Of a stretch of DNA of 64,000 bases, positions 24,355 through 39,378 are shown piece after piece. Below the pieces are notes generated by a model. The model saw only the letters and a list, made by a program, of their open reading frames with translations, was not told the origin of the DNA and ran no database searches. The stretch's first letter is position 1. The number at the start of each line of letters is the position of its first letter. A program made the position numbers and the translations under genes. Source of the DNA: Isoalcanivorax pacificus W11-5 (GTDB lineage Bacteria; Pseudomonadota; Gammaproteobacteria; Pseudomonadales; Alcanivoracaceae); assembly GCF_000299335.2 (NCBI RefSeq), contig NZ_CP004387.1, positions 1,922,001-1,986,000 on the forward strand, written 5' to 3'.

Positions 24355-24382
24355 TCCCGCACGTCATCGCTGTGTTTTGCCG

Positions 24383-24397
24383 GCACCATCATGGTGC
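24383..24397. promoter_or_regulatory. NtrC-type binding site upstream of nasR
   Basis: GCACC-ATCAT-GGTGC matches the NtrC consensus GCACC-N5-GGTGC exactly and lies within a longer perfect dyad at 24379-24401. It is only seven bases upstream of the sigma-54 promoter, closer than typical enhancers. The same dyad could also be the end-of-transcript hairpin of trhO, but no T run follows. Confidence 0.55.
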
Positions 24398-24403
24398 CGG
24401 CGC

Positions 24404-24419
24404 TGGCTTGTTCCTTGCA
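24404..24419 (+). promoter_or_regulatory. Sigma-54 promoter of nasR
   Basis: TGGCTTGTTCCTTGCA has GG and GC at the exact -24/-12 spacing and matches the TGGCAC-N5-TTGCA consensus well. Predicted transcription start is about 24431, leaving a short leader before the ATG at 24457. Confidence 0.75.
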
Positions 24420-24456
24420 TGATTCCGGGCATACACCGCTCAGAGGATGCCAGGAC

Positions 24457-25761
24457 ATGCACAGGATTCCCCCGGGGGACCGCCATCGGCCGCCCAGTGC
24501 CACGGATTTTCTGATCGCATCGCGACAAAGCGAAATGCTCAGCCTGGAAGCGTTTCTGGGCATGGGGCGCCTGGTCGTGGCGATCAGCAATCTGGTCCAC
24601 GCCCTGCAACGCGAACGGGGTGCCTCGAACCTGTATCTTGGCGCCCACGGACGTCGCCACGCTGACCGGCTGCTGGCGCTCAGCGCCGACGTGGATGCAC
24701 AGCAGGCCCGCTTCGATGCGGCCCTGGCAACACTGGATCACGCCGGCGGCATGATCGGCGCCAGCCGCCTGTTCAGCCGGTTGGCGTATTGCGTACATAC
24801 CCTGTCGGAACTGCCCCAGGTGCGAGAGCAGGTGCGCGCGCAGAAACTGACGCCGGAAGAAGCCGTGCGCTGCTACAGCGAACTGGTGCGCGGGTTGCTG
24901 GCGGTGGTCTTCGAAGCCGCAGAGAACGCCGCAGACCCGGCCATTTCGCGCACCCTGGTGGCGATGTTCAATTTCATGCAGGGCAAGGAACTGGCCGGGC
25001 AGGAGCGTGCTGCCGGGTGTGCCGGGTTTGCGCGGGGCGAACTGGACAATGTGCTCAGCGAACGGCTGCTGCATCTGCTCGAAGCGCAGGAGCGCTGCTT
25101 CCAGATATTCGAAAGTTTTGCCGATGAACAGGCGCTGGCGTTGTGGCGTGGCGTGCAGGGCGCCCCCGCCGTAGCGGAACTGGAACGGCTGCGCCGGCTG
25201 GCGTGCACGGCGGCGCAGCGTGATCAGTCCCGGGTGGATGAATCACTCAGTGATCGCTGGTTCGAATTGACGACCGAGCGCATCGACGCAATGAAAAGCG
25301 TTGAGGATTATCTTGAATCACGCCTGCACAGCCAGTGCGCTGGCAAGCTGGCGGAAGCCCGTGACGGGCTGGCCCGCCATCAGTCACTGATTGAATCCGT
25401 GCTGGCGGAGGAAGCGGAGCCGAGGGATTCCTACATCGTCTTTTGCGGCACACAGGGCGCGACCGGTGAGCCGGACAGTTACCACAGCGAAGGCGTCAGC
25501 CCGCGGCTGGGCCGCTCGATTATCGAGCTGGTGCAGTTGCAATCGCAGCGTTTGCAGGCCATGTATGATGAACTGAACGCGGCGCGCACGGCACTGGAGG
25601 AACGCAAGCTGATGGAGCGGGCGAAAGTCCTGCTGATGAAACACCGCAAGCTGACCGAGGAACAGGCGTACCGCCTGCTGCGGCAGATGGCGATGAACCA
25701 GAGCCGGCGGCTGGTGGATGTGGCGCGCGCAGTGGTCAGCATGCAGGACGTGTGGGAATAA
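24457..25761 (+). CDS. nasR: NasR-type nitrate-sensing antiterminator (NIT + ANTAR domains)
   Basis: 434 residues. The N-terminal helical NIT (nitrate/nitrite-sensing) domain covers about residues 30-300 and includes VHALQRERGASNLYLG. The C-terminal ANTAR RNA-binding domain is at about 375-425 (ALEERKLMERAKVLLMKHRK, TEEQAYRLLRQMAMNQSRRL). In Klebsiella NasR binds tandem hairpins in the nasF leader and prevents termination when nitrate or nitrite is present. Three matching leaders occur at 32385-32489, 28524-28652 and 32054-32103. The ATG at 24457 is used; an in-frame start at 24391 lies upstream of the promoter. The gene has its own sigma-54 promoter. Confidence 0.93.
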   Translation: MHRIPPGDRHRPPSATDFLIASRQSEMLSLEAFLGMGRLVVAISNLVHALQRERGASNLYLGAHGRRHADRLLALSADVDAQQARFDAALATLDHAGGMIGASRLFSRLAYCVHTLSELPQVREQVRAQKLTPEEAVRCYSELVRGLLAVVFEAAENAADPAISRTLVAMFNFMQGKELAGQERAAGCAGFARGELDNVLSERLLHLLEAQERCFQIFESFADEQALALWRGVQGAPAVAELERLRRLACTAAQRDQSRVDESLSDRWFELTTERIDAMKSVEDYLESRLHSQCAGKLAEARDGLARHQSLIESVLAEEAEPRDSYIVFCGTQGATGEPDSYHSEGVSPRLGRSIIELVQLQSQRLQAMYDELNAARTALEERKLMERAKVLLMKHRKLTEEQAYRLLRQMAMNQSRRLVDVARAVVSMQDVWE

Positions 25762-25827
25762 GGTCTTTGGGGATCACACTGGCCGTAATGAGCTCGGGTG
25801 GCTTTGGGTTGTGATCCAGTTGCCCAC

Positions 25828-27567
25828 CTAACCCGGATGCCACACCAGCACCGTTGCCAGCACCAGCGCCAACACCAACGACAGTAATTGCCAGAACCGC
25901 AGCGGGTTGCGTTCCAGCAGCGGGGCGGCGGTGCCGGCGTGCAGGGCGGGATTGGGATGCTCCAGATCAAACAGGAATTCCGACAGCGCCGCATAACGCT
26001 GGTTGGGATCGGGGTGCACCGCCTTGCGCAGCGGGCCATCGAGCCAGGGTGGCAGGTCCTGGCGATACTGCGTCAGCGGGCGGTAGCGCAGCCGATGCTG
26101 CCGACCACTGAGACTGGCAGCGGCGACCGCCGTGCCATAAGGGAGCTGGCCGGTGAGTAGCTGGTAGGCCATGACGCCGAGCGAAAACAGGTCGGAACCC
26201 TCGTGGCTGTCGTGGCCACGAAAACATTCCGGGGCAGTGTAGGGGGCCGTACCGAGCAGGCTGTCGCGCAGGGCGTGCGGTAGCTGGTCCTGCAGGCCGG
26301 CGATACGGGTGGCACCGAAATCGATCAGTGTCACGGTGCCGCTGCGGTCGATCAGAATATTGTCCGGGCGCAGGTCCTGGTGAAACATTTCCAGCCGGTG
26401 AAACGCACGCAGGCCGCTGGCGATCTGCCGGACGATATCGCGCACGCTGCTCAGCGCCGCTGCGGGGTGATCATGCAGCCACTGGCGCAATGTCTGCCCG
26501 TCGATATATTCGGTTACCGTGTAGCAGTAGCGGCGCGGCCGTGTCGGCGGCACGGCACGCAGTACATGGGGATGATCCAGACGGCGGGCGATCCATTCCT
26601 CCATGACAAAGCGTTGCAGCCAGGCCGGATCATCGCGTGCCTCGGTGGACGGCACCTTGATGACCACCGTCTGCTGGTGAGCGTCATCCCGCGCCAGGTA
26701 CACCTGGCTGCGGTGCCCCTGGTGCAGTTCGCGCAGTATCGAATAGCCTTCGAATGCCGTGCGCGGTGCCAGCGCGGGCGGGCAGGGCAATGCCCTGGCC
26801 TGGCCAAGTTGTGTCTCCGCATCGTGGGGCGGCAGCGTTTCGACGCGCAGCAGTTGTACGGTCACGTTGTCGTCGCTGCCGTGTGCCAGTGCCTGATCGG
26901 CGATGTGCTTCGCGGTGTCATCCAGCGCTGTGGCTGTACGCAGCAGTTCAGTTATTTCGGCATGTCCGAGGTATTCGTACACACCGTCGGTCACCAACAG
27001 AAACAGATCGCCTGCCGCCAGTGTGCAATGCAGGTAATCCAGTTCCAGATGGGGCTGGATGCCCAGCGCCCGGCTCAGGTAATGCTGCTCGCGCGACACC
27101 CAGAGCCGGTGATCGGTGGTGAGTTGCTCCAGCTCGCCATCGCGCCAGCGGTAAATGCGTGAATCGCCGGCATGAAACACACTGGCCTGGCTGCCGCGCA
27201 GCACGAGCGCGCTGAGCGTGCAGACGTAGCCCCGGTCCATGTCGTAGCGGAACTGGCTCTGGCGTGTCTGCGCATACAGCCACGCGTTAATCGCCATCAG
27301 TACGCGCGACGCGGACTGCTTGACTGACCAGGTGTCCGGCGTACTGAAATAATCCGACAGGAAACCCCGCACGGCACAGTCGCTGGCAATGTGGCTGACG
27401 CTGCTGCTGCCAATGCCATCTGCGAGCGCCACGGCGATACCCTTGGTGCTGCGCAGCGGTTCGTCGGGCAGGAACAGGCCGTGGCAATCCTGGTTGGCCG
27501 GCTTGCGTCCCTTGTCACTGTACTGGCCGAAGGAAACGGACAACCCGCTCATGCTTGCCTCGCTCAT
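25828..27567 (-). CDS. PP2C phosphatase-Ser/Thr kinase fusion with C-terminal membrane anchor (paralog 1)
   Basis: 579 residues. PP2C domain (about 10-245) keeps its metal ligands: NQDCHG, ALADGIGSSS, HAGDSRIYRW, LLVTDGVYEY, GSDDNVTV. The kinase domain (about 270-530) has VVIKVPS (Lys304), HQDLRPDN (catalytic Asp398, HQD in place of HRD), LIDFGA (Asp416) and TAPEC; its Gly loop is poor (LHQGHRSQVYLA). A single transmembrane helix ends the protein (FWQLLSLVLALVLATVLVW), so the enzyme faces the cytoplasm. It follows the FNT transporter by 93 bases on the same strand. Similar fusions sit beside nitrate genes in pseudomonads; their targets are unknown. The start may be 27567 or 27552. Confidence 0.85.
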   Translation of the reverse strand: MSEASMSGLSVSFGQYSDKGRKPANQDCHGLFLPDEPLRSTKGIAVALADGIGSSSVSHIASDCAVRGFLSDYFSTPDTWSVKQSASRVLMAINAWLYAQTRQSQFRYDMDRGYVCTLSALVLRGSQASVFHAGDSRIYRWRDGELEQLTTDHRLWVSREQHYLSRALGIQPHLELDYLHCTLAAGDLFLLVTDGVYEYLGHAEITELLRTATALDDTAKHIADQALAHGSDDNVTVQLLRVETLPPHDAETQLGQARALPCPPALAPRTAFEGYSILRELHQGHRSQVYLARDDAHQQTVVIKVPSTEARDDPAWLQRFVMEEWIARRLDHPHVLRAVPPTRPRRYCYTVTEYIDGQTLRQWLHDHPAAALSSVRDIVRQIASGLRAFHRLEMFHQDLRPDNILIDRSGTVTLIDFGATRIAGLQDQLPHALRDSLLGTAPYTAPECFRGHDSHEGSDLFSLGVMAYQLLTGQLPYGTAVAAASLSGRQHRLRYRPLTQYRQDLPPWLDGPLRKAVHPDPNQRYAALSEFLFDLEHPNPALHAGTAAPLLERNPLRFWQLLSLVLALVLATVLVWHPG

Positions 27568-27660
27568 GCGCGCCTCGGTAAGGGGGGTGCCACCGGCCTG
27601 ACCCGCGTGGGCTCGGGGCAGGCCGATGGGCTTGGTGAACCGTGGAATGTATCGCGTGCT

Positions 27661-28473
27661 TCAGCGCAATACGCGGGCCGCGCCGGTGCGCAGGTGGGTG
27701 GTGTAGAGCGTCAGGCCGGTCAGCGACAGGCCGCCGACCAGATTGCCAAGCACCACCGGGATTTCGTTCCAGATCAGATAATCCATGACGGAAAAATCAC
27801 CGCCCATGATCAGCGCGGAGGGGAACAGAAACATGTTCACCACTGAATGCTCAAAGGCCATGGCGAAGAACAGCATGATCGGCATCCACATGGCGATCAC
27901 CTTGCCGCCCACCGTGGTCGAGATCATCGCGCCCACCACACCCAACGACACCATCCAGTTGCACAGTACGCCGCGAATGAAAATGGTCAGCATGCCGGCG
28001 GCGCCGTATTCCTTGTAACCCAGGGTCCGGTCTTCGCCGATATGGGAAATCACCTGGCCTACCTGATTGGGTTCGGTGGAGAAACCGTAGGTAAAGACAA
28101 TGGCCATCATCAGGGCGACGGTGAGTGCGCCGAGAAAATTGCCGGTAAAGACGACGCCCCAATGGCGCAGGATGACACCGGGTGTCACGCCGGGGCGCTT
28201 GTCGAACAGTGCCAGCGGTGTCAGTACGAATACGCCGGTGAGCAGGTCGAAACCCATCAGGTAAAGGATGCAGAAGCCGACCGGGAACAGCATCGCGCCG
28301 AGGATCGGAAACCCGGTCTGCACCGAGACAGTCACGGCAAAGACCGCAGCCAGGGCGAGAATGGCACCGGCCATGTAGGCGCGGATCAAGGCGTCGCGGG
28401 TGGCCATGTAGAGTTTGGATTCACCGGCGTCCACCATTTTCGAAACAAATTCCGACGGGACCAGATAAGACAT
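27661..28473 (-). CDS. Formate/nitrite transporter family protein
   Basis: 270-residue FNT-family channel with six membrane segments. Typical motifs are MFPVGFCILYLMGFDLLTG-like LFPVGFCILYLMGFDLLTG, GNFLGALTVALMM, GVLCNWMVSLGV and EHSVVNMF (helix-breaking segment with the pore His). In this setting between nitrate genes it most likely moves nitrite, as NirC does. It is preceded by a sigma-54 promoter and an ANTAR-type leader with a terminator, and followed by a kinase/phosphatase gene. Confidence 0.9.
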   Translation of the reverse strand: MSYLVPSEFVSKMVDAGESKLYMATRDALIRAYMAGAILALAAVFAVTVSVQTGFPILGAMLFPVGFCILYLMGFDLLTGVFVLTPLALFDKRPGVTPGVILRHWGVVFTGNFLGALTVALMMAIVFTYGFSTEPNQVGQVISHIGEDRTLGYKEYGAAGMLTIFIRGVLCNWMVSLGVVGAMISTTVGGKVIAMWMPIMLFFAMAFEHSVVNMFLFPSALIMGGDFSVMDYLIWNEIPVVLGNLVGGLSLTGLTLYTTHLRTGAARVLR

Positions 28474-28523
28474 AGCGATTCTCTGCTTTCCAGTGTAGAG
28501 ACACGTGGCCGTTTCCGGCGCAC

Positions 28524-28579
28524 AAAAAAAAAGCGCCCACCCGCTGCCCGGCCAGATGGCCGATGAAGCGTGTGGGCGC
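28524..28579 (-). terminator. Leader terminator of the FNT transporter operon
   Basis: On the minus strand GCGCCCAC (28579-28572) pairs with GTGGGCGC (28540-28533) and is followed by nine T. Its 5' arm is also the 3' arm of leader hairpin P2, so the two structures exclude each other. Confidence 0.85.
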
Positions 28580-28587
28580 CATTGCCC
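28574..28587 (-). promoter_or_regulatory. ANTAR-target hairpin P2, FNT leader
   Basis: GGGC-AATGGC-GCCC: a four-pair stem with a six-base loop having A at position 1 and G at position 4. It overlaps the 5' arm of the leader terminator. Confidence 0.7.
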
Positions 28588-28632
28588 TGTGTTACCGCGA
28601 CGGCCTGAAAAAGAGCCGCCCTGCGATCAGTG

Positions 28633-28652
28633 CATGCCCGCCATTGGGCATG
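28633..28652 (-). promoter_or_regulatory. ANTAR-target hairpin P1, FNT leader
   Basis: CATGCCC-AATGGC-GGGCATG: a perfect seven-pair stem with a six-base loop, A at 1 and G at 4, identical in loop sequence to P2 and to P1 of the nirB leader. The stretch 28474-28814 has no gene; it is this leader plus its promoter. Confidence 0.75.
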
Positions 28653-28681
28653 TCCCTGTCGCTGTGTTGCCTCTGCAGTGA

Positions 28682-28697
28682 TGCAGGAAGTATGCCA
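28682..28697 (-). promoter_or_regulatory. Sigma-54 promoter of the FNT transporter operon
   Basis: Minus strand TGGCATACTTCCTGCA: GG and GC at the -24/-12 spacing. Predicted start about 28671, roughly 20 bases before hairpin P1 and 200 before the ATG. Confidence 0.7.
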
Positions 28698-28814
28698 GAG
28701 GTTCTGTTCGTGCTGCGGTCAGCAAATATGCGCTGTGCTGCATGACAAAGCGGAAAAATCCCCGCCTTGTTTTGGTGCGCGTGCATTCCGGTGGGGCGGT
28801 GCCGGGTGTTTTTT

Positions 28815-30479
28815 TCACCCGTGCAGGGCCAGGCTTGTGATCAGCAGCACCAGCAGAATCATGCAGCCGGCCTGCCACCAGCGCAGCGTGTTGCGTTCAG
28901 AATGGAGAATGACCGCCGGTTGTGTGGCCGGGCTGCGCAACGCCGCGCGGAACTCGGCAGCATCGGCATAGGGCGTGGCCTCGGGATGCAGTGCGCGGTG
29001 CAGGACGTTGTTCAGCCAGGCTGGCACAAACGCATTGTGTTGCTGCAGGCGCAGTGTCGGCCTGTCCGGTTCCGGCAGCGTGGTGGTCAGCATTTCGTGA
29101 ATGATCACCGCCACCGCATACAGGTCCCCCTGTTCATCCGGTCTGGCGCCAGCACGGATATGCGGTGCGCTATAGTGACGGGTGCCGAGTGGCAGGGCGG
29201 GCGGTGGCTGCTCCAGTCCACGGCAATGGCAACTGCCGAAGTCGATCAGTTTCACCAGCCCGTTGCGGTCCACCATGATGTTGTCGGGTTTCAGGTCGCC
29301 ATGCATGACGTCGGCACGGTGCAGGGCGCGCACGCCGTTGAGCAACTGATCCGCGAGATACAGTTTTTCTTCCACGGCGGCATCCGGGTGTTCACGCAGC
29401 CATTGGCGCAGGGTGACGCCGTCGATGTATTCCAGCCGCTGGTACAGGCAGCTTTGCGCTGCCACGCCGGCCAGGGGCTTCAGCAGGTGGGCACTGCGCA
29501 GGCGCGCCGCGATCCAGCCTTCCAGGGCAAAGCGGGCCAGGGCCGCGGCATCGTCTTCCAGGTTCACCGAAGGCGCCTTGAGTGCACTGAGCTGGCCGTC
29601 GCTGTCACGCACCAGATACAGGTGGCTGCGCGCGCTGGCATACAGTTCGCGCACCACGGTCAGGCCATCAATACGCATGCCTGCAATCATCGGCGGCGGC
29701 AGGGGCAGCCCGCGCAATGAGGCCAGTGCGTCGTCGGCGCTCGCCTCCGGCAGGGTCAGCACTTCCAGAACCTGACAACTGACGTTGTCGCGGCTGCCGT
29801 GCTGAAGAGCGCGCTGCACCAGTTGTTCGGCGGCGGCCTGTGGCGTTTCCGATGCGGACAGAGTGGCCGCTATTATGGTGGCGGACAGCACATCGTGGAT
29901 GCCGTCGCTGGTAAGCAGAAAGACGTCGCCCTGTTGCAGCGCGCAGTGGCGATAATCCACGTCCAGGCGCGTGTCGGCGCCCATGGCGCGGGTCAGCAGG
30001 CGCCGCCCGCCGGCCTGGCGGCTGTGATCTTCGGTGAGACATTCCAGTTGCTGTCCGCGCAGCCGCCAGATACGCGAATCACCGACCTGGAACAGATGCG
30101 CCACGCGCGAGCGCAGGATCAGTACCGACAGCGTACACAGATGATCCTCGCCGGCCAGCGTGCGGCGGCACAGCCAGCGGTTGAGGGCTTCCAGCACCCG
30201 CTGCGCCGAACGCGGCACACTCCAGAGCGGTGACGTGGCGTAATAGTCATGGATAAAACCGAGCACGGCGGCCTCGGCCGCTTCGCGGCCGGCGCCAGCG
30301 GAGCTGAGGCCATCGGCCAGCGCGGCAACCAGCCCCTTGGTGCGCAACGGCTCACCAAAGGGCAGGCGCAGCGCCAGCGCATCCTGATTATCCGCTTTGA
30401 CGCCCGCTTCGCTGTACTGGCCCACACGCACATGCAGCGTCGCTTGGCCCACGTCAGGCGTGGCCGGCATGCTCGTCAT
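28815..30479 (-). CDS. PP2C phosphatase-Ser/Thr kinase fusion with C-terminal membrane anchor (paralog 2)
   Basis: 554 residues with the same architecture as paralog 1. PP2C motifs are intact: DNQDAL, ALADGLSSAG, VGDSRIWRL, LLTSDGIHDV, GSRDNVSC. The kinase domain keeps Lys301 (SALKAPS), Asp395 in HGDLKPDN and Asp413 in LIDFGS, but the nucleotide loop has no glycine (LYASARSHLYLV) and APE is replaced by APH. Kinase activity may be weak while phosphatase activity is likely. A final transmembrane helix (GCMILLVLLITSLAL) anchors it. The ATG overlaps the narK-type transporter stop by one base (TGATG), so the two are translationally coupled. Confidence 0.85.
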   Translation of the reverse strand: MTSMPATPDVGQATLHVRVGQYSEAGVKADNQDALALRLPFGEPLRTKGLVAALADGLSSAGAGREAAEAAVLGFIHDYYATSPLWSVPRSAQRVLEALNRWLCRRTLAGEDHLCTLSVLILRSRVAHLFQVGDSRIWRLRGQQLECLTEDHSRQAGGRRLLTRAMGADTRLDVDYRHCALQQGDVFLLTSDGIHDVLSATIIAATLSASETPQAAAEQLVQRALQHGSRDNVSCQVLEVLTLPEASADDALASLRGLPLPPPMIAGMRIDGLTVVRELYASARSHLYLVRDSDGQLSALKAPSVNLEDDAAALARFALEGWIAARLRSAHLLKPLAGVAAQSCLYQRLEYIDGVTLRQWLREHPDAAVEEKLYLADQLLNGVRALHRADVMHGDLKPDNIMVDRNGLVKLIDFGSCHCRGLEQPPPALPLGTRHYSAPHIRAGARPDEQGDLYAVAVIIHEMLTTTLPEPDRPTLRLQQHNAFVPAWLNNVLHRALHPEATPYADAAEFRAALRSPATQPAVILHSERNTLRWWQAGCMILLVLLITSLALHG

Positions 30480-31954
30480 CAGTTCACCTCGATCAGTTGC
30501 ACCTGGCCGTGTTCATCCACCTCGGCGATGTGGCCGCGCGGTTCATCCAGCCATTGCACCGTGGCCAGGGTCACGGCGGCACAGCCTGCGATGACCAGGA
30601 AAAAAACCGAAGCATCGACGAACGTCAGCACGGTGAGAAAACAGACCGCACCGGCATTGCCATAGGCGCCCACCATGCCGGCGATCTGCCCGGTCAGGCG
30701 GCGCTTGATCAGTGGCACGGTGGCAAACACCGCGCCTTCGCCCGCCTGCACGAAGAACGAACAAAGCATGGTCGCCATCACGGCCAGGGCCAGTGGCCAG
30801 CCGCTGCCGATCTGGCTCATCAGGCCATAGCCGAGCACCAGACCGGCCAGCAGCAGCGCCAGCGAGCGTTTGCGGCCAAAGCGGTCGGACAGCCAGCCAC
30901 CGCCGGGGCGGGCGACCAGATTCATGAAGGCAAAACCGGACGCGAGCAGGCCGGCGGTGACGGCGGTCAGGTCAAAGGTGTCGATAAAGAACAGCGGCAG
31001 CATGGACACCACGGCCAGTTCGGAACCAAACGTCACCATATAGGCCAGGTCAAGAATCGCCACTTGCCGGAAGCGATAGCGGTCGTGTTCGGGCACGCCC
31101 TGGCGCAGCCGGGCATGATTGACGCGCCAGATTTGCCAGAGTTGCACGATGGCCAGGCTGAGGATGACGGCGACCAGCGCCAGTTGTGCGTTCAGGCCAT
31201 ACAGGCCGAGCTGGCCCGGTCCCAGACGCCAGACGATCACCAGCAGCGCCCCGTACAGCGGTACACACATGGCCAGATAGAAAAACAGATCGCGGCGGCT
31301 GCTGACTTCCAGTGCCGAGGCTTTTTTCGGACGGAAATAGGATGCGCCGGCGGGCGTGTTGCGCGCCCGCCAGAGAAAGACAAGACCGTACACGCAGGAC
31401 AGCACGCCGGTACAGGCCACAGCCCCGCGCCAGCCGTTGTCGCCGCCGAACAGGAGCGCCAGCGTCGGCAGGCTCATGGCCGCCGCCGCTGAACCGAAAT
31501 TGCCCCAGCCGCCGTACACGCCTTCCGCAAGCCCCACTTCCCTGGCCGGGAACCATTCGCTGATCAGGCGGATACCGACCACAAAGCCGGCGCCGACAAA
31601 ACCGAGCAGCAGCCGCGTGACGGCCAGTTGTTCATAGGTAGTGGCCAGCGCGAATGCCCAGCAGGGCAGTGCGGCGATGATCAGCAACCAGCCAAACACC
31701 CGCCGTGGACCGAAGCGGTCCACCAGTGAGCCAATGACGACGCGGGCGGGAATGGTCAGCGCCACGTTGAGAATCAGCAGCGCCTTGACCTGGTCGCTGG
31801 TGAGATCAAACACCTCGCGGATATCGCCCATCAGCGGGGCATGGGAAAACCACACCACAAAGCTGACAAAGAACGCCATCCAGCTCAGGTGCAACAGGCG
31901 TATGCGGGGTTCGGACAGGTTCAGCAGATTGAGTCGCGCGTGCTGTGCAGCCAT
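30479..31954 (-). CDS. NarK/NasA-type nitrate/nitrite transporter (MFS)
   Basis: 491-residue major facilitator with about 12 membrane segments. NNP-family signatures are [32 protein letters not shown], the nitrate signature [18 protein letters not shown] and [19 protein letters not shown]. It should import nitrate, or exchange nitrate and nitrite, across the inner membrane. GGAGA lies four bases before the ATG at 31954; a longer frame to 32017 has no support. It is divergent from nirB and co-transcribed with kinase/phosphatase paralog 2. Confidence 0.92.
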
Positions 31955-32053
31955 GAGGTCTCCGTACTCGCGAATAGCGGGGACCGGGCCCACCCGTCCG
32001 GGTGTCGTGCATGCCACGGCGCCGGACCTGCCCGGCGGAAAAACCGGGTGGGT

Positions 32054-32067
32054 GGGCGCCGTTGCCC
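32054..32067 (-). promoter_or_regulatory. ANTAR-target hairpin P2, narK leader
   Basis: GGGC-AACGGC-GCCC: six-base loop with A at 1 and G at 4. Preceded by GTAACAC, the same flank as in the FNT leader. Unlike nirB and FNT, no strong terminator with a T run follows; a complement to its 3' arm (GGGTGGGC) occurs close to the ribosome site. Confidence 0.6.
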
Positions 32068-32079
32068 GTGTTACAGGTG

Positions 32080-32103
32080 GCGCGCGGCATCATTGCCGCG
32101 CGC
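32080..32103 (-). promoter_or_regulatory. ANTAR-target hairpin P1, narK leader
   Basis: GCGCGCGGC-AATGAT-GCCGCGCGC: a nine-pair perfect stem with a six-base loop, A at 1 and G at 4, starting about seven bases after the predicted transcription start. Confidence 0.68.
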
Positions 32104-32119
32104 TGTCCGCAGGGCAGGA

Positions 32120-32135
32120 TGCAGGATGCATACCA
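32120..32135 (-). promoter_or_regulatory. Sigma-54 promoter of the narK operon
   Basis: Minus strand TGGTATGCATCCTGCA: GG/GC at -24/-12 spacing, one of the weaker matches in the region. Predicted start about 32109. Confidence 0.6.
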
Positions 32136-32201
32136 GCAAGCGGACACCTGATGTTCTGCGGTCATGGGCCGGTTTGTTCGTCGCCGGCGCTGCGCTGGCG
32201 T

Positions 32202-32236
32202 GCATGCTTGTGGTGCGCGATGCACAAGCGTGATGC
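32202..32236. promoter_or_regulatory. Tandem NtrC-like sites between narK and nirB
   Basis: GCATG-CTTGT-GGTGC (32202-32216) and GCACA-AGCGT-GATGC (32222-32236) each match eight of ten arm positions of the NtrC consensus. Their centres are 20 bases apart, two helical turns, and they lie roughly 100 and 150 bases upstream of the narK and nirB starts. Confidence 0.4.
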
Positions 32237-32333
32237 AGGGAAATTCCACGCGCAGCCGAGTCGTGATGCTGCACGATGGCGAAAGACGGCTGTGAGGGCG
32301 CTCTGGCGCTGGTCGGCGCCCATGCCGGAAAGC

Positions 32334-32349
32334 TGGCACAACTCTTGCT
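32334..32349 (+). promoter_or_regulatory. Sigma-54 promoter of the nirB operon
   Basis: TGGCACAACTCTTGCT is a near-perfect -24/-12 element. Predicted start about 32360, giving a leader of about 207 bases before nirB. Confidence 0.85.
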
Positions 32350-32384
32350 GAGACTCTTGCCGAGACAGTCCGGTGCATAACACG

Positions 32385-32407
32385 CCCGGCTCAATGGCGA
32401 GCCTGGG
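32385..32407 (+). promoter_or_regulatory. ANTAR-target hairpin P1, nirB leader
   Basis: GGCTC-AATGGC-GAGCC with an outer CCC/GGG extension across a one-base bulge. The six-base loop has A at 1 and G at 4. Confidence 0.78.
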
Positions 32408-32436
32408 TGTATGCATCGCAAAACATGATGAATGAA

Positions 32437-32452
32437 TGAGCAAAGGCGCTCA
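32437..32452 (+). promoter_or_regulatory. ANTAR-target hairpin P2, nirB leader
   Basis: TGAGC-AAAGGC-GCTCA: five-pair stem with a six-base loop, A at 1 and G at 4. Its 3' half is shared with the 5' arm of the terminator at 32446. Confidence 0.78.
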
Positions 32453-32489
32453 CGGTCCGGTCACCCCCGGGCAGTGAGCGCTTTTTTTT
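32446..32489 (+). terminator. Leader terminator of the nirB operon
   Basis: GCGCTCAC (32446-32453) pairs with GTGAGCGC (32474-32481), followed by eight T. It lies inside the leader, between the promoter and nirB, so it must be bypassed for expression; NasR binding to P1/P2 is the expected switch. The gene-free stretch 31955-32566 consists of the two divergent leaders and promoters. Confidence 0.88.
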
Positions 32490-32566
32490 GTGCCTCTTTT
32501 CCATACTTCGCTGGCCTGTGTGCCGGCAGGGCGGAGAGGCCGGACAGGTGAAGGAGCGTTGCGTTC

Positions 32567-35113
32567 ATGAGCAGACCTGAACTGGTGATTATCGGCAACG
32601 GCATGGTCGGGCAGCACCTGCTGGAAGAGCTGGTTGCCCGCGAACATGGCTATCACATTACGGTGTTCTGTGAAGAACCCCGGCCAGCCTATGACCGGGT
32701 GCAGCTCAGCAGTTGGTTCAGTGGCGCCACCACCGAAGACCTGGCGCTGACCAGCACGGCTTTTTTCGAGCAGCACGGGATCAGGTTGCGCCTGGGTGAA
32801 CGGGTGGAGCGGATCGACCGCGAGGCACGCGTGGTACTGAGCAGCAACGGCGACCGGGTGGCGTATGACAGGCTGGTGCTGGCCACTGGCTCTTATCCGT
32901 TCGTACCGCCCATTCCAGGCAACGACCAGCCGCATTGTCTGGTGTACCGCACCATCGAGGACCTTGAAGCCATTCGCGACAGCGCCGCCGTATCGAAACG
33001 CGGCGTGGTCATCGGTGGTGGCCTGCTGGGCCTGGAAGCGGCGCGTGCCCTGAACGGGCTGGGGCTGGAAACCCATGTAGTGGAATTCGCGCCGCAATTG
33101 ATGGCGGTACAACTGGATGAAAACGGCGGCCGCCTGTTGCGCGGCAAGATCGAGGCGCTGGGTGTGCGGGTGCATACCGGCAAGGCCACATCGGCGATTG
33201 TCAGCGGCGAAAGTAGCCGTTACCGGCTGGCATTCGCCGACGGTGAATCGCTGGAGACGGATCTGGTGCTATTTTCCGCCGGTATCCGTCCTGCGGATGC
33301 GCTGGCGCGCGACGCCGGGCTTGAACTCGGCGAGCGCGGCGGTGTGGTGATCAATGACGCCTGCCAGACCTCGGACCCGGACATTTTTGCCATCGGCGAA
33401 GTGGCGCTGTGGCAGGGACGGATCTTTGGCCTGGTGGCGCCCGGTTATGACATGGCCCGTGCCTGCGCCGCACGCCTGCTGGGTGATGACACGCGGTGCT
33501 TTACCGGCGCGGACATGAGCACCAAGCTGAAATTGCTGGGCGTGGATGTGGGTTCCATTGGCGATGCGCACGGGCGCACACCGGGCAGCCTGAGCTGTGT
33601 ATTCGAGGACGGCGCCAGCGGCGTCTACAAGAAACTGGTGCTCGACCCGCAGGGCAAGCGACTGCTGGGCGCGGTGCTGGTGGGGGACGTGGCCGACTAC
33701 GGCATGCTGCTGCAGTTCTGCCTCAACGACATGCCGTTGCCACCGCAACCGGTGTCGCTGATTCTGCCGGACGCTGGTGGCAAGCCCGCGCTCGGTGTCG
33801 ATGCCCTGCCGGACAGTGCGCAAATCTGCTCGTGCAATAACGTCTCGAAAGGGCAGTTGTGTTCGGCCATCAGTGCCGGCTGTACCACCGTGGGCGCCTT
33901 GAAAAGTGAAACCCGTGCCTCGGCGAGTTGCGGTGGCTGCGCGGCGCTGGTCAAGCAGGTGCTGGATGCAGAGCTGGTGCGCCAGGGCATCGAGGTGAAT
34001 AACCACCTTTGCGAGCATTTTGCCTACAGCCGCCAGGAGCTTTACCACCTGGTACGCGTGCACGAGGTGCGCACCTTTACGGATCTGCTGGCCCGCTTTG
34101 GCCAGGGCAAAGGCTGTGAGATCTGCAAGCCGACCGTGGCGTCCATCCTGGCGTCCTGCTGGAACGACTATGTGCTGCGACCGGAACACACAGGGTTGCA
34201 GGACACCAACGATGCCTTCCTCGCCAACCTGCAAAAGGACGGCACCTATTCCGTGGTGCCGCGCGTGCCCGGTGGCGAGATCACCCCGGACAAGCTGCTG
34301 GTGATCGGCGACGTCGCGAAAAAATACGACCTCTACACGAAAATCACCGGCGGCCAGCGCATCGATCTGTTTGGCGCACGGGTGGAACAGCTGCCGCTGA
34401 TCTGGGGCGAACTGGTGGACGCCGGTTTTGAATCCGGGCATGCCTACGGCAAGTCACTGCGCACGGTGAAATCCTGTGTCGGCAGCAGCTGGTGCCGGTA
34501 CGGAGTGCAGGATTCCGTTGGCATGGCGATCTATGTCGAGGAGCGCTATCGCGGCCTGCGTTCGCCACACAAACTGAAAATGGCGGTGTCCGGCTGCACC
34601 CGCGAATGCGCCGAGGCGCAGAGCAAGGACGTCGGCATCATCGCCACGGAAAAAGGCTGGAATCTGTATATCTGCGGCAACGGCGGCATGCGTCCCCGGC
34701 ATGCGGAACTGTTCGCCAGTGACCTGGATGACGCCACGCTGATCCGCTACATCGATCGCTTCCTGATGTTCTACATCCGCACCGCAGACCGGCTGCAACG
34801 CACCTCGGTATGGCGCGACAACCTCGAAGGCGGGCTGGCCTATCTGCAGGACGTGATCATTCATGACTCGCTGGGCCTGGGCGAGGAGCTGGAAATGCAG
34901 ATGCAGGCGGTGGTCGATACCTACGCCTGCGAATGGAAACGCACGCTGGAAGACGAACAGGCGCTGAAACGCTTCCGCTCGTTCGTGAACGATGAATCGG
35001 CGGATGAACATATCGTCTATGTGCGTGAGCGGGGCCAGAAACGTCCTGCCACCGCTGCGGAGCGTCTCGCCGTCAATGCAATGGAAACGCCTGCCAAGGG
35101 AGAGCCGGCATGA
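32567..35113 (+). CDS. nirB: Assimilatory nitrite reductase (NADH), large subunit
   Basis: 848 residues. FAD/NAD domain (LVIIGNGMVGQHLLEELV; GVVIGGGLLGLEAARAL), a BFD-like [2Fe-2S] domain (ICSCNNVSKGQLCSAI, ASCGGCAALVKQ), then the sulfite/nitrite reductase domains with the [4Fe-4S]-siroheme cysteines in CVGSSWCRYG (C637, C643) and CTRECAEAQ (C677, C681). It reduces nitrite to ammonium with NADH in the cytoplasm. First gene of nirB-nirD-oxidoreductase-nas-cobA; the next gene overlaps (ATGA). Confidence 0.96.
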   Translation: MSRPELVIIGNGMVGQHLLEELVAREHGYHITVFCEEPRPAYDRVQLSSWFSGATTEDLALTSTAFFEQHGIRLRLGERVERIDREARVVLSSNGDRVAYDRLVLATGSYPFVPPIPGNDQPHCLVYRTIEDLEAIRDSAAVSKRGVVIGGGLLGLEAARALNGLGLETHVVEFAPQLMAVQLDENGGRLLRGKIEALGVRVHTGKATSAIVSGESSRYRLAFADGESLETDLVLFSAGIRPADALARDAGLELGERGGVVINDACQTSDPDIFAIGEVALWQGRIFGLVAPGYDMARACAARLLGDDTRCFTGADMSTKLKLLGVDVGSIGDAHGRTPGSLSCVFEDGASGVYKKLVLDPQGKRLLGAVLVGDVADYGMLLQFCLNDMPLPPQPVSLILPDAGGKPALGVDALPDSAQICSCNNVSKGQLCSAISAGCTTVGALKSETRASASCGGCAALVKQVLDAELVRQGIEVNNHLCEHFAYSRQELYHLVRVHEVRTFTDLLARFGQGKGCEICKPTVASILASCWNDYVLRPEHTGLQDTNDAFLANLQKDGTYSVVPRVPGGEITPDKLLVIGDVAKKYDLYTKITGGQRIDLFGARVEQLPLIWGELVDAGFESGHAYGKSLRTVKSCVGSSWCRYGVQDSVGMAIYVEERYRGLRSPHKLKMAVSGCTRECAEAQSKDVGIIATEKGWNLYICGNGGMRPRHAELFASDLDDATLIRYIDRFLMFYIRTADRLQRTSVWRDNLEGGLAYLQDVIIHDSLGLGEELEMQMQAVVDTYACEWKRTLEDEQALKRFRSFVNDESADEHIVYVRERGQKRPATAAERLAVNAMETPAKGEPA

Positions 35114-35478
35114 ACAGCAAAGTGCACCTCGACAACATGAATTCCGCCGGCTGGCAGGATGTCTGCGCAACCGACGACGTCATGCCGGGCACGGGCGTGG
35201 CTGCCCGCATCCAGGGTATCCAGGTGGCGCTGTTTCATACCGAGGACGGCTTCTTTGCCATCGCCAACCATGATCCGTTCAGCGACGCCAATGTGCTCTC
35301 GCGCGGCATTCTCGGAGATATAAGCGGCAAACTGGTGGTGGCCTCGCCGGTCTACAAACAACACTTTTGCCTGCACACCGGCATTTGTCTGGAAGACATG
35401 ACGGTGGCGTTGCCGACCTGGCCGGTGACGGTGCGGGACGGACGCGTGCTGGTGTCCCATCAGGCACGGCTGGTGTGA
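35110..35478 (+). CDS. nirD: Nitrite reductase small subunit
   Basis: 122-residue Rieske-fold protein of the NirD group (GWQDVCATDDVMPGTG, HTEDGFFAIANHDPFSDANV, KQHFCLHTGICLEDM), which lacks the usual Rieske Cys/His cluster ligands. Partner of NirB. ATG overlaps the nirB stop. A second copy lies at 41626. Confidence 0.93.
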   Translation: MNSKVHLDNMNSAGWQDVCATDDVMPGTGVAARIQGIQVALFHTEDGFFAIANHDPFSDANVLSRGILGDISGKLVVASPVYKQHFCLHTGICLEDMTVALPTWPVTVRDGRVLVSHQARLV

Positions 35479-35482
35479 GCGC

Positions 35483-36697
35483 ATGAACACACAACGGCCA
35501 CATCTGGTGGTGGTGGGCAACGGCATGGCGGCCACCCGTCTGCTGGAGGAATTGCTGGCGCTGGCGCCGACGCGGTATCAGATCACCGTGTTCAGCGCGG
35601 AACAGGCGCCGGGCTACAACCGCGTGTTGCTGTCGCCGGTGCTGGGTGGTGAAAAAGACGAGAGCAGTATCGTTACCCATGATGAAGCGTGGTATCGCGA
35701 CCGGGGCATCCATCTGGTCGCCGGTGACCCGGTGTGCGCGATCGATCGCCGTCGCCGTCAAGTTACCAGCCGTTCGGGGTTGTGCGTGCCGTATCACCGG
35801 CTGGTGCTGGCCACCGGATCACTGCCACGGCGTCTGCAATGCGCCGGGGCCGACGCACAGGGCATTACCACTTTCCGTGATCTGCGCGACACCCGTGCGC
35901 TGATTCAGGCGAGCACGCGCAGCCGTGCAGCGGTGGTGATCGGCGGGGGCTTCCTCGGTATCGAAGCCGCCGAAGCGTTGCACCGGCGTGGCGTGGCGGT
36001 GACCTTGCTGCACACGGGCGCGTGGTTGCTGAACCGTCAGCTGGACCGTGAAGCCGGCAACTTGCTGCACGATGAACTGCAACGCCGCGGGGTGCAGGTC
36101 TGCTTGCAATCCCGCACGGCATCGTTCGAGGAGGACCATCGGCGGCAGGTGCGTGCGGTGCGTCTTCAGGACGGTCACCGACTGAAGGCCGACCTGGTGG
36201 TGCAGGCCATCGGCATCACGCCGGATACACGGCTTGCCCGTGCCGCCGGCCTGCATTGCGAGCAGGGCGTACTCACCGACGACACCCTGCAGACGTATGA
36301 TCCGGCGATCTATGCCGTGGGCGAATGCGTGCAGCATCGGCAGCGTACCTTTGGCCTGGTCGCGCCGCTGTACGAACAGGCCCGCGTGTGCGCTGCGCAT
36401 CTGGCCGAGCAGGGCCACCGGCGCTATTGCTACCGGGACAGCGCGACGCGATTGAAAGTCAGTGGCGTGGCGATGTTCTCCGCCGGTGATATTCAGGGCG
36501 ACAGCGATCTGTACTGGCGTGATGCAAGCGCCCGTGTTTACCGCCGGCTGTGGTTGCAGGGCGACCGGCTGCGTGGCGTGGTGCTGTATGGCGATACCAG
36601 CGGCGCGGCCTGGTTTGAGCAACGCCTGGGTGAGGACGTGTCTGGCTGCCGCGACAGCCTGCTGTTTGGTGACCGCTTGCCGGAGCAGGCGGCATGA
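35483..36697 (+). CDS. FAD/NAD(P)-dependent oxidoreductase, electron donor subunit for nitrate reductase
   Basis: 404-residue pyridine-nucleotide disulfide oxidoreductase-type flavoprotein with two dinucleotide folds (HLVVVGNGMAATRLLEEL; AVVIGGGFLGIEAAEALHRR). It resembles the FAD domain of NirB but lacks Fe-S and siroheme parts. Its position between nirD and the nitrate reductase gene, with an ATGA overlap to the latter, suggests it passes electrons from NAD(P)H to nitrate reductase, like the NasC/NasB-type subunits; this role is inferred. Confidence 0.85.
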   Translation: MNTQRPHLVVVGNGMAATRLLEELLALAPTRYQITVFSAEQAPGYNRVLLSPVLGGEKDESSIVTHDEAWYRDRGIHLVAGDPVCAIDRRRRQVTSRSGLCVPYHRLVLATGSLPRRLQCAGADAQGITTFRDLRDTRALIQASTRSRAAVVIGGGFLGIEAAEALHRRGVAVTLLHTGAWLLNRQLDREAGNLLHDELQRRGVQVCLQSRTASFEEDHRRQVRAVRLQDGHRLKADLVVQAIGITPDTRLARAAGLHCEQGVLTDDTLQTYDPAIYAVGECVQHRQRTFGLVAPLYEQARVCAAHLAEQGHRRYCYRDSATRLKVSGVAMFSAGDIQGDSDLYWRDASARVYRRLWLQGDRLRGVVLYGDTSGAAWFEQRLGEDVSGCRDSLLFGDRLPEQAA

Positions 36698-39378
36698 CGG
36701 CCATTCCGGTGCTCGGTGCACAGCGCGACACGACCTGTCCCTATTGTGGCGTCGGCTGCGGCGTCAGCATGCACCGTGAGGAGGACGGCTGGCGTGCCAC
36801 GGGGCTGGCGCAGCATCCCGCCAATTTTGGCCGTCTGTGCGTGAAAGGCAGCGCACTGGGTGAAACGCTTGGCCTGCAGGAGCGGCTGCTGTCGCCGGAG
36901 ATTGACGGCTGCCGTGTGGACTGGGATCGGGCGCTGGACACGGTCGCGGCCCGCCTGCGGGAAGCGATGCAGACGCATGGACCGGAATCCGTGGCGTTCT
37001 ATGTCTCCGGCCAGTTGCTCACCGAGGATTACTACGTCGCCAATAAACTGATGAAAGGGTTTATCGGCGCGGCGAACATCGACACCAACTCGCGCCTGTG
37101 CATGTCCAGTGCCGTGGCCGCGCACAAGAAAATCTTTGGCGCCGATGCCGTGCCCGGTTGCTACCAGGACCTGGCGCTGGCCGACCTGGTGATCCTCACC
37201 GGCTCGAACATGGCCTGGACACATCCGGTGGTGTACCAGCGGCTGGTAGCCGCGAAGCAGGCGCGCCCCGCCATGAAAGTGGTGGTCATTGATCCGCGCG
37301 AAACGGCCACCTGCGACCTGGCCGATCTGCATCTGCCGCTGGCCGCCGGTACCGACGGTTTCCTGTTTACGGGCCTGCTTGCCTGGTGCGCGCGGCAAGG
37401 GCTGCTGGACCAGGCCTACATTGATGCGCACACGCGCGGTTTCGCAGAGTGTCTGGCTGCGGCGGCGCAGGCCTGTCCTGATCTGGCCAGCACTGCACAG
37501 CAGTGCGGATTGCCACTGGAAACACTGCGCACTTTCTTCGCATGGTTCGCTGAGTCGCCACGCACGGTGACGGTTTTTTCCCAGGGCATCAACCAGTCCG
37601 ATACCGGTGTCGACAAGGCGTGCGCCATTATTCATTGCCATCTGGCCACCGGCCGCATTGGCAAACCCGGTGCCGCACCGTTTTCGATTACCGGCCAGCC
37701 GAATGCCATGGGCGGCCGCGAAGTGGGCGGGCTGGCAAACCAGTTGGCGGCGCACATGGGCTTCGAGGCGTGCGCACGGGTCGCGCGTTTCTGGCGCACC
37801 GACCGCATCGCCCGCAGCCCCGGATTCAAGGCAGTGGACCTGTTCCGTGCCGTGGGCGAGGGGCGTATCAAAGTGGTGTGGATCATGGCCACCAATCCGG
37901 TCGTGTCCATGCCGGAGGCGGACCTGGTGCGCGCCGCACTGGCGCATTGCCCGACGGTCATCGTGTCCGATTGCGTGGCCGATACCGACACGCTGCGGCT
38001 GGCGCATATCCGGCTGCCGGCGGCGGCGTGGGGCGAAAAGGACGGCACGGTGACCAATTCCGAGCGGCGTATTTCACGCCAGCGGCCGTTCCTGCCGTTG
38101 CCTGGCGAAGCAAGGCCGGACTGGTGGATCATCAGTGAAGTGGCGCGGCGAATGGGCTTCGAAGCGGCCTTCCCGTACCAGTCGCCGGCACAGATCTTTC
38201 GTGAACACGCGGCCTTGTCCGGCTATGAAAACGATGGCCGCCGCGCGTTCGACATCAGCGCGCTGGCGCAACTGACCGACCAGCAGTACGAACAGCTTTT
38301 ACCTGTCCAGTGGCCGCTCAGCGGTAAAGGTCCGTTCAGGCCCGGTGCGTCTGGCACCGAGCGCCTGTTTGCTGACGGCCACTTTTTTTCTCCCGATGGC
38401 CGCGCGCACTGTACGCCGGTGACACCGCGCCGGCCCATGGCGCGTACTACCGCCGAATGGCCGCTGCTGCTGAACAGTGGCCGCCTGCGCGACCAGTGGC
38501 ACACCATGACGCGCACGGGCCGGGCTGCCCGTCTGCTCAGCCACGTCAGCGAACCTTACATCGCGGTGCATCCCGCAGACCTGGCAACGGCCGGTGTGGA
38601 TGACGGTGAACTGGTGCAGGTGGAAAGCCCGCTCGGGCAATGCCTGGTCGCCGCGCGTGCCAGCAATGAACAGACGCCGGGTGAAGTGTTCATGCCGATT
38701 CACTGGAACGACTGTTTTGCCAGCGCGGCCCGCGTTGATGCGCTGGTGGCGGCGATCTGCGATGAGGAATCCGGCCAGCCGGCGTTCAAGCAAACGCCGG
38801 TGCGGCTGCAGCGCTATGCCGCCCGGTGGCAGGCGCGTGTGATCACGGCAGAGCCGGTCCAGACACCCGACAGCCAGTATTACTGGTGCCGTGTGCCCGA
38901 TGGTGCGCTGGTGCGCTGGCGCATGGCCGGCAGCCGTGCCGTCACGCTCGACTGGCTGAAAGCCCGTTGCCCGACCATCACCGACTGGGCCGAGATGGTG
39001 GACGCTGCGCGCGGGCATTTTCGTCTGCTGGGATATCGCCATGGCCGGCCCGTGTGTTTCGCCGCGCTGGCCCCGTCACTGGTCACGCTGGATGAAGACT
39101 GGCTGGTGCAGCAATTGCGTGCGTCAGCGCCGGCCGATGCACTGCAACTGATGGCGGGGCAACCCGGTGGGGCGCGTGACACCAGCCCTGTGGTCTGCAG
39201 CTGTCACCAGGTGCGTGAAGCGGCACTGGAAGACGCGGTGCGAAACGGTTGCCACGATGTGGCGGCACTGGGGCAATGCACACGCGCCGGCACCGGTTGC
39301 GGTTCCTGCCTGCCGGAAATCAAGACACTGCTGGCGCGCGTGCGCACCGGGACGCCTGAGGAGATCGCCCAATGTTGA
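36694..39378 (+). CDS. nasA: Assimilatory nitrate reductase, molybdopterin catalytic subunit
   Basis: 894-residue cytoplasmic nitrate reductase of the Mo-bisMGD family (Klebsiella NasA; called NasC in some organisms). N-terminal [4Fe-4S] motif CPYCGVGC (C15, C18, C22) with a later Cys in GRLCVKG; Mo-cofactor regions include NIDTNSRLCMSSAV and GQPNAMGGREVGGLANQL; a molydopterin-dinucleotide binding domain follows (LLLNSGRLRDQWHTMTRTGR). The C-terminus adds a BFD-like [2Fe-2S] domain (VVCSCHQVREAALEDAV, from about residue 833; CTRAGTGCGSC). No Tat signal, so it is cytoplasmic. Confidence 0.95.
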   Translation: MTAIPVLGAQRDTTCPYCGVGCGVSMHREEDGWRATGLAQHPANFGRLCVKGSALGETLGLQERLLSPEIDGCRVDWDRALDTVAARLREAMQTHGPESVAFYVSGQLLTEDYYVANKLMKGFIGAANIDTNSRLCMSSAVAAHKKIFGADAVPGCYQDLALADLVILTGSNMAWTHPVVYQRLVAAKQARPAMKVVVIDPRETATCDLADLHLPLAAGTDGFLFTGLLAWCARQGLLDQAYIDAHTRGFAECLAAAAQACPDLASTAQQCGLPLETLRTFFAWFAESPRTVTVFSQGINQSDTGVDKACAIIHCHLATGRIGKPGAAPFSITGQPNAMGGREVGGLANQLAAHMGFEACARVARFWRTDRIARSPGFKAVDLFRAVGEGRIKVVWIMATNPVVSMPEADLVRAALAHCPTVIVSDCVADTDTLRLAHIRLPAAAWGEKDGTVTNSERRISRQRPFLPLPGEARPDWWIISEVARRMGFEAAFPYQSPAQIFREHAALSGYENDGRRAFDISALAQLTDQQYEQLLPVQWPLSGKGPFRPGASGTERLFADGHFFSPDGRAHCTPVTPRRPMARTTAEWPLLLNSGRLRDQWHTMTRTGRAARLLSHVSEPYIAVHPADLATAGVDDGELVQVESPLGQCLVAARASNEQTPGEVFMPIHWNDCFASAARVDALVAAICDEESGQPAFKQTPVRLQRYAARWQARVITAEPVQTPDSQYYWCRVPDGALVRWRMAGSRAVTLDWLKARCPTITDWAEMVDAARGHFRLLGYRHGRPVCFAALAPSLVTLDEDWLVQQLRASAPADALQLMAGQPGGARDTSPVVCSCHQVREAALEDAVRNGCHDVAALGQCTRAGTGCGSCLPEIKTLLARVRTGTPEEIAQC

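Follow-up and report, generated by a model that had tools for sequence, protein, structure and literature searches.

A predicted NasR regulon with three two-hairpin RNA leaders, one of them without an intrinsic terminator, in Isoalcanivorax pacificus W11-5

Can a single RNA-binding protein of the NasR type, which joins a NIT domain to an ANTAR domain, govern several neighboring transcription units through their RNA leaders, and would it act on each of them in the same way? The question is raised by a stretch of 64,000 nucleotides (nt) of the Isoalcanivorax pacificus W11-5 genome (NZ_CP004387.1, 1,922,001-1,986,000, forward strand; hereafter the window, in whose numbering positions are given), which holds nasR together with nirB, fnt (formate/nitrite transporter [FNT] family), and narK. 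The genome consists of a single contig of 4.17 Mb, with its completeness rated at 100%. A first-pass annotation of this DNA had assigned two tandem hairpins of the ANTAR-target kind to the leader of each of the three genes and had NasR control read-through in all of them.

Two-hairpin leaders of nirB, fnt, and narK

The paired hairpins, P1 and P2, were located by a hairpin scan and by the covariance model R2 described below:

32388..32403, + strand: P1 of the nirB leader, loop AATGGC
32437..32452, + strand: P2 of the nirB leader, loop AAAGGC; 3′ arm common to the terminator
28633..28652, - strand: P1 of the fnt leader, loop AATGGC
28574..28587, - strand: P2 of the fnt leader, loop AATGGC; 3′ arm common to the terminator
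32080..32103, - strand: P1 of the narK leader, loop AATGAT
32054..32067, - strand: P2 of the narK leader, loop AACGGC

All three leaders contain two hairpins with A-N-N-G-N-N hexaloops and a closing C:G pair, and the six loops read exactly as the first-pass annotation had given them. The bare pattern occurs at chance level: a scan for two hexaloop hairpins with A1 and G4 and stems of at least 4 bp returned 7 pairs in the window and 1 to 7 pairs in 10 shuffles. Pairs in which P2 is common to a U-tract terminator numbered two in the window (nirB and fnt) and zero in each of the 10 shuffles. The decisive test of whether the leaders are real is the ranking by R2, a covariance model built from 21 leaders, none of them from this genus. 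It ranked these three above everything else in the window, with 41.1 bits for narK, 31.0 for fnt, and 26.6 for nirB, the next among the 23 listed matches scoring 13.4 bits; the ANTAR motif proposed for the three leaders is thereby confirmed. A second model, R1, whose seed includes the window's three leaders and family members, gave them 43.2 to 46.8 bits in the window (next match, 12.8 bits) and again ranked the same three at the top of the whole genome. In the whole-genome searches with R1 and R2, 150 first-look candidates each, out of 5069 and 4514, were scored. A possible fourth target was considered and set aside in this non-exhaustive genome-wide search, as the next R1 matches (24.4, 21.7, and 21.2 bits, the first inside a reading frame) lie inside long open frames. 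No part of the window reached the gathering score of an Rfam family; searched by E value, positions 24000-33000 yielded just two chance-level matches, neither of them relevant.

The pairing itself is conserved by compensatory change, in a comparison that is partly circular. In the 21 seed rows of R2, all from outside the genus, 98.6% of the cells are paired and 51 cells are changed on both sides; shuffles averaged 14.3 such cells, and none of the 500 came as high. Another seed set gave 104 such cells versus 33.5 in shuffles. The seeds were chosen by a scanner requiring 4-bp stems, and paired cells are therefore partly built in; the types of compensatory change and the ever-present closing C:G were not among the scanner's requirements.

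Within the genus, we compared 19 leaders from six species: six of nirB, six of narK, two of fnt (window and genome G004), and five of nrtA in three species, G001 and G003 each having two divergent nrtA genes. In G005, nrtA starts at a contig end and its leader falls outside the visible sequence. The first-pass annotation had made conservation of the paired hairpins in related genomes the test of its claim, and P1 and P2 are paired in 182 of the 190 cells of this comparison. The closing C:G is found in all 19 leaders for both hairpins, and A1 and G4 are present in 18 of the 19 P1 loops and in every P2 loop. These features fit the motif selected for NasR by SELEX, namely A1, G4, and a closing C:G, as described in PMC7496416. 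The gene for NasR is present in six of the seven genomes of the genus; G002 lacks it and has no leader either. Among the divergent nrtA pairs (L004, 14535-15026; L003, 14627-15136), each gene has its own leader, and one P1 loop lacks A1 (GACGAT), scoring just 20.3 bits.

Promoters, terminators, and the narK leader

A strict sigma-54 motif (TGGYAYR-N5-TGCW) has exactly three matches in the window, one upstream of each leader:

32334..32349, + strand: sigma-54 -24/-12 motif of nirB, TGGCACAACTCTTGCT; kept in all six species
28682..28697, - strand: sigma-54 motif of fnt, TGGCATACTTCCTGCA
32120..32135, - strand: sigma-54 motif of narK, TGGTATGCATCCTGCA

A slightly wider form of the motif precedes all 19 leaders of the genus, starting 30 to 52 nt before the leader core. 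The genome encodes sigma-54 itself (rpoN) as well as ntrC, the latter over the curated cut-off. Together, motif, rpoN, and ntrC predict sigma-54 promoters ahead of the leaders. The nasF operon of Klebsiella oxytoca also has a sigma-54/Ntr promoter. For an NtrC binding site there was a by-eye look only, and none is claimed. A search for sigma-70 promoters in 24000-33000 found one, compared with a shuffle mean of 1.5, and none was credited.

Downstream of the promoters, the leaders differ in what overlaps P2:

32446..32489, + strand: intrinsic terminator of the nirB leader, with 8 T (hairpin scan, genus comparison)
28524..28579, - strand: intrinsic terminator of the fnt leader, with 9 T (genus comparison)
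31988..32057, - strand: alternative stem of the narK leader, GCCCACCC/GGGTGGGC, which uses the 3′ arm of P2 and has no U-tract after it

In all 13 nirB, fnt, and nrtA leaders of the genus, the 3′ arm of P2 is at the same time the 5′ arm of a hairpin that is followed by a T-run. A simple terminator scan of 24000-33000 missed real terminators because of its loop limit of 3-8. In a folding model, P1 and P2 in place of the terminator cost 9.4 kcal/mol for nirB and 12.8 kcal/mol for fnt, a cost that a bound protein would pay or that co-transcriptional folding would avoid.

An origin of the hairpins by chance in GC-rich sequence has next to no probability left. It would agree with the bare two-hairpin pattern being equally common in shuffles; it is contradicted by the scores from the model built outside the genus, the compensatory changes, the placement behind sigma-54 motifs, and the terminator overlap in 13 of 13 leaders other than those of narK. 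For nirB and fnt, a chance origin is already refuted.

The claim of the first-pass annotation that all three leaders control read-through accordingly divides. It fits nirB and fnt, where the terminator overlaps P2, and finds no support at narK, where an intrinsic terminator is absent in all six species. The P2 arm of narK pairs elsewhere in every species, with partners that differ between them. Since the narK motif is the best match of the three, the narK leader is probably bound by NasR; since it has no terminator, NasR must act there otherwise, through Rho-dependent termination, an undetected signal, or mere binding. It is nearly as likely to be right as wrong that narK has an ANTAR switch without an intrinsic terminator, operating via Rho or translation. 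The kept motif, the absent terminator, and the alternative pairing of the P2 arm would agree with this, and Ramesh et al. (PMC3369931) report many ANTAR matches without terminators that possibly control translation. However, P1/P2 does not free the ribosome-binding site of narK in any of the six folds, and the six species do not share one alternative stem. Translation control via a freed ribosome-binding site was thus left without support by the folds.

A further reading, possible but doubtful, holds that only nirB and fnt are true NasR targets, that the hairpins of narK are vestigial or a site of effectless binding, and that narK is under sigma-54 and NtrC alone. It would explain why no U-tract follows the alternative stem in any of the six species, why P1 of narK has an internal mismatch in three of them, and why folding reveals no effect on the ribosome-binding site; in Bradyrhizobium, moreover, narK rose in a nasT mutant despite its predicted hairpins (PMC6759348). 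On the other hand, narK obtains the top score, 41.1 bits, from a model built outside the genus, its loops keep A1, G4, and the closing C:G in all six species, and a G-C pair of P2 is replaced by A-U in two. The kept loops and this compensatory change make the leader look kept rather than decaying.

From P2 to the narK ATG, a region that includes CGCGAGTACGGAGA, the sequence is highly similar in four species (window, L113, L110, and L145). In the window, this region has an open frame, in phase, starting at a GTG further upstream (32017). Its role may lie in regulation, or it may encode an N-terminal extension.

NasR and the predicted circuit

The genes of the locus are as follows:

24457..25761, + strand: nasR, NIT plus ANTAR protein, 434 amino acids counted from the chosen ATG
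25828..27567, - strand: PP2C phosphatase-Ser/Thr kinase fusion, downstream of fnt (domain search)
27661..28473, - strand: fnt, formate/nitrite transporter family (Pfam E = 3e-61; under the curated NCBIfam cut-offs)
28815..30479, - strand: second PP2C-kinase fusion, whose ATG overlaps the narK stop codon (domain search)
30479..31954, - strand: narK, NarK-family MFS transporter (TIGR00886, 323.9 bits; cut-off, 311.7)
32567..39378, + strand: nirB, nirD, nasB-like reductase, and nasA-like nitrate reductase genes, behind the nirB leader (Pfam, NCBIfam); the nasA-like product is under the curated NCBIfam cut-off

NasR is intact, as had been proposed: both Pfam domains, NIT (E = 2.7e-56) and ANTAR (E = 7.1e-18), exceed their cut-offs within one protein. 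Among solved structures, the best match is K. oxytoca NasR (PDB 4akk; E = 1.1e-59), and the closest NasR from a named genome is that of Alcanivorax sp. S71-1-4, with 90% identity. We mapped residues from the 4akk alignment, with an inferred K. oxytoca numbering offset that agrees with the ANTAR residues given in PMC7496416. The same source provides the residue roles, with E175 and R176 in a proposed nitrate pocket, R340 in RNA binding, and an aromatic W362. The window NasR keeps E175 and R176 (here E183 and R184), R340 (R383), E359, and R366; W362 is replaced by Y405, aromatic residues other than W being also found at this position (PMC7496416), and N373 by S. The RNA-binding side of NasR is thus kept, and its off-state contacts may differ.

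The nasR gene is the sole ANTAR match in the whole genome, and any ANTAR protein that reads the leaders should therefore be NasR. It is highly improbable that the leaders answer instead to a pair of NasS and NasT proteins encoded at another locus. A NasT with the same motif is used in sister genera, which would speak for such a pair; the genome, however, has NasR as its only ANTAR match and no NasS match, on a single contig rated 100% complete, and this alternative is already refuted unless the assembly lacks some genes. Leaders and ANTAR proteins also go together in the family. Among the 36 family genomes covered by both searches, 24 have a leader at an E value of at most 1e-4, in each case together with an ANTAR match, and 8 of the 12 without a leader have no ANTAR match either; these counts ignore kinship, the R1 seeds include family members, and 4 of the 40 genomes searched for leaders were left out.

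From the protein domains, hairpins, promoters, terminators, and their conservation, all seen in the sequence, we infer binding, the response to nitrate, and the direction of control, and with them the nitrate control of the regulon that the first-pass annotation had envisaged. We consider it likely that the locus is a NasR regulon in which nitrate assimilation is gated in two steps. The three sigma-54 promoters would be switched on by nitrogen shortage, with NtrC as the likely activator, and each transcript would begin with the ANTAR two-hairpin motif. In the absence of nitrate, P2 of nirB and fnt would lose to the overlapping intrinsic terminator and transcription would stop. In its presence, NasR would bind P1 and P2 and block the terminator, allowing nirBD-nasBA and fnt-kinase to be made. 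The narK transcript would carry the same motif with an alternative fold that competes with P2, and no terminator. The sigma-54 promoters, the two PP2C-kinase genes, and the NasS-NasT proteins of sister genera were absent from the first-pass annotation.

Several observations weigh against this reading. At least three strict sigma-54 matches were reached in 6 of 100 shuffles, so that their placement, not their number, is the evidence. In the whole-genome search, R2 found narK, recovered nirB in truncated form (15.8 bits), and missed fnt; with the limited scoring of candidates, this makes further targets in the genome possible. One of the five measures of covariation, the number of pairs with a change on both sides, is not distinctive, 256 of 500 and 47 of 500 shuffles being as high. 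No narK leader of the six species reaches 5 T among the 9 nt after its best alternative stem (4 in G005, where the stem is weak, and 0 to 2 in the others), and P1/P2 formation opens the narK ribosome-binding site in none of the six species folds. In NasR, the NIT autoinhibitory-pair partners E191, R193, and Q194 are not kept (V199, S201, and E202 in the window); their enrichment is described as modest in PMC7496416, and we therefore did not treat them as defining for NasR. Finally, four family genomes (G017, G022, G030, and G032) have an ANTAR match yet no leader at an E value of at most 1e-4.

Two differing PP2C-phosphatase/Ser-Thr-kinase fusions stand within the regulon, behind fnt and narK. 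PP2C-kinase homologues also occur near NasR in many Burkholderiales loci.

Known systems, relatives, and the origin of the circuit

The closest parallel is NasR-nasF of K. oxytoca, which shares the NIT-ANTAR protein, the two-hairpin leader, the A1/G4 loops, the closing C:G, and a P2 that overlaps the terminator (PMC7496416, PMC3369931). In contrast to the one operon there, three transcription units are involved here, the transporters are of the FNT and NarK types, the narK leader has no terminator, and NasR has Y for W362 and does not keep the three autoinhibitory partners. The NasS-NasT systems of Bradyrhizobium, Paracoccus, and the sister genera, acting on nas, nos, and narK leaders, share the hairpin code and a plurality of targets, narK being one in Bradyrhizobium (PMC6759348). 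There, however, NasS holds a receiver-ANTAR protein, NasT, whereas here we find one NIT-ANTAR protein and no NasS match. The EutV regulon of Enterococcus faecalis likewise has one ANTAR protein and several terminator-bearing leaders (PMC3369931) but differs in its two-component signal, its ethanolamine genes, and its host, a member of the Firmicutes.

The first-pass annotation had taken three targets to be a richer circuit than the classic case with its one leader; given earlier multi-target cases, several targets do not go beyond what is known. EutV leaders precede eutP, eutG, eutS, eutA, and ef0120, and ANTAR leaders of three Pelobacter nitrogenase units were likewise reported or predicted (PMC3369931); NasT-type hairpins have been predicted in the narK, bjgb, nirA, and coxS leaders of Bradyrhizobium (PMC6759348). 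A literature search returned no title or abstract on a NasR regulon in Alcanivorax among its top results. Multi-target ANTAR regulons and ANTAR-type hairpins in a narK leader were already published, and the new element is a well-supported, conserved NasR instance with an odd narK leader.

Three leaders near NasR are unusual outside the genus. We fetched 80 NasR-encoding loci from named genomes, 77 of them from outside the genus, with up to about 10 kb visible on each side and many contigs cut. At an E value of at most 1e-3, 65 of these 77 have at least one leader (68 leaders in all): 62 have one, 3 have two, and none has three. Within the genus, the genes between nasR and the narK-kinase unit vary, being fnt and a kinase in the window and G004 and NrtABC-type genes in G001, G003, and G006; in G005, where the contig is cut, nrt genes lie beside nasR. 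Few genomes of the class encode a full-length NasR: 8 of 274 sampled do so at an E value of at most 1e-30. The six NasR proteins of the genus form one clade (100/97), next to which several long branches meet without resolving its neighbors; a transfer from Burkholderiales was considered on this tree, and no donor is named. In G024, from another genus of the family, a second NIT-ANTAR lineage lies elsewhere in the NasR tree, with its leader (before an NrtA-like gene) and its regulator on different contigs (L156, contig 3, and L112, contig 1).

Several sister genera encode receiver-ANTAR proteins, three loci of which (L117, L119, and L118) were tested against Pfam, and have the same two-hairpin motif before nrt-like genes. 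In L117, an NMT1_2-type protein, which we take for NasS, adjoins the receiver-ANTAR gene and has close relatives in several other family genomes. A search with it gave no match in the window genome or G004, and the weaker matches in G001, G003, G005, and G006 (32-39% identity) fall in their own nrtA genes. The P2 14-mer GAGCAAAGGCGCTC, identical in all six nirB leaders of the genus, is also present in 17 of the 18 family loci compared, one of which (L156) belongs to G024 with its NIT-ANTAR protein; in these loci the leader precedes nrtA, not nirB. This identity only suggests that the nirB leader descends from leaders read by NasT. Most simply, NasR would have taken the place of NasS-NasT in this genus, with the RNA motif staying in use. 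A fuller scenario, which we hold tentatively and judge somewhat more likely to fail than to stand, is that in the ancestor of the genus NasR supplanted NasS-NasT, that the ANTAR leaders, each with its own sigma-54 promoter, persisted and came to precede three or four units, that sensors and transport cargo (NrtABC or FNT-kinase) were exchanged around a fixed RNA module, and that the leader of narK became an ANTAR switch needing no intrinsic terminator.

In g8, a sister genus of the NasT type, the terminator hairpin of the nrt leaders is capped by a third ANTAR-type hexaloop in 12 of 12 genomes. The loops read AACGAA, AACGAT, AATGAA, AATGGT, or AACGAC and are closed by C:G, on stems of differing sequence; the leaders are:

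L132, L133, L136, L137, L139, L140, L143, L144, L149, L151, L152, L155: g8 leaders with a third hexaloop

Such a loop could keep NasT on the terminator form in g8. By eye, no third hexaloop was seen in the nirB and fnt terminators of the window or in L146, L148, and L150.

Collectively, the locus would be a compact NasR circuit: antitermination describes two of its leaders exactly but not the third, which has the best-matching hairpins. The question of how terminator-less ANTAR targets work becomes addressable here in one organism with one protein. The exchange of sensors, NasT or NasR, over one RNA motif amounts to a natural experiment. Our data also suggest that pairing sigma-54 control of transcription start with control by an ANTAR leader is the rule in this family.

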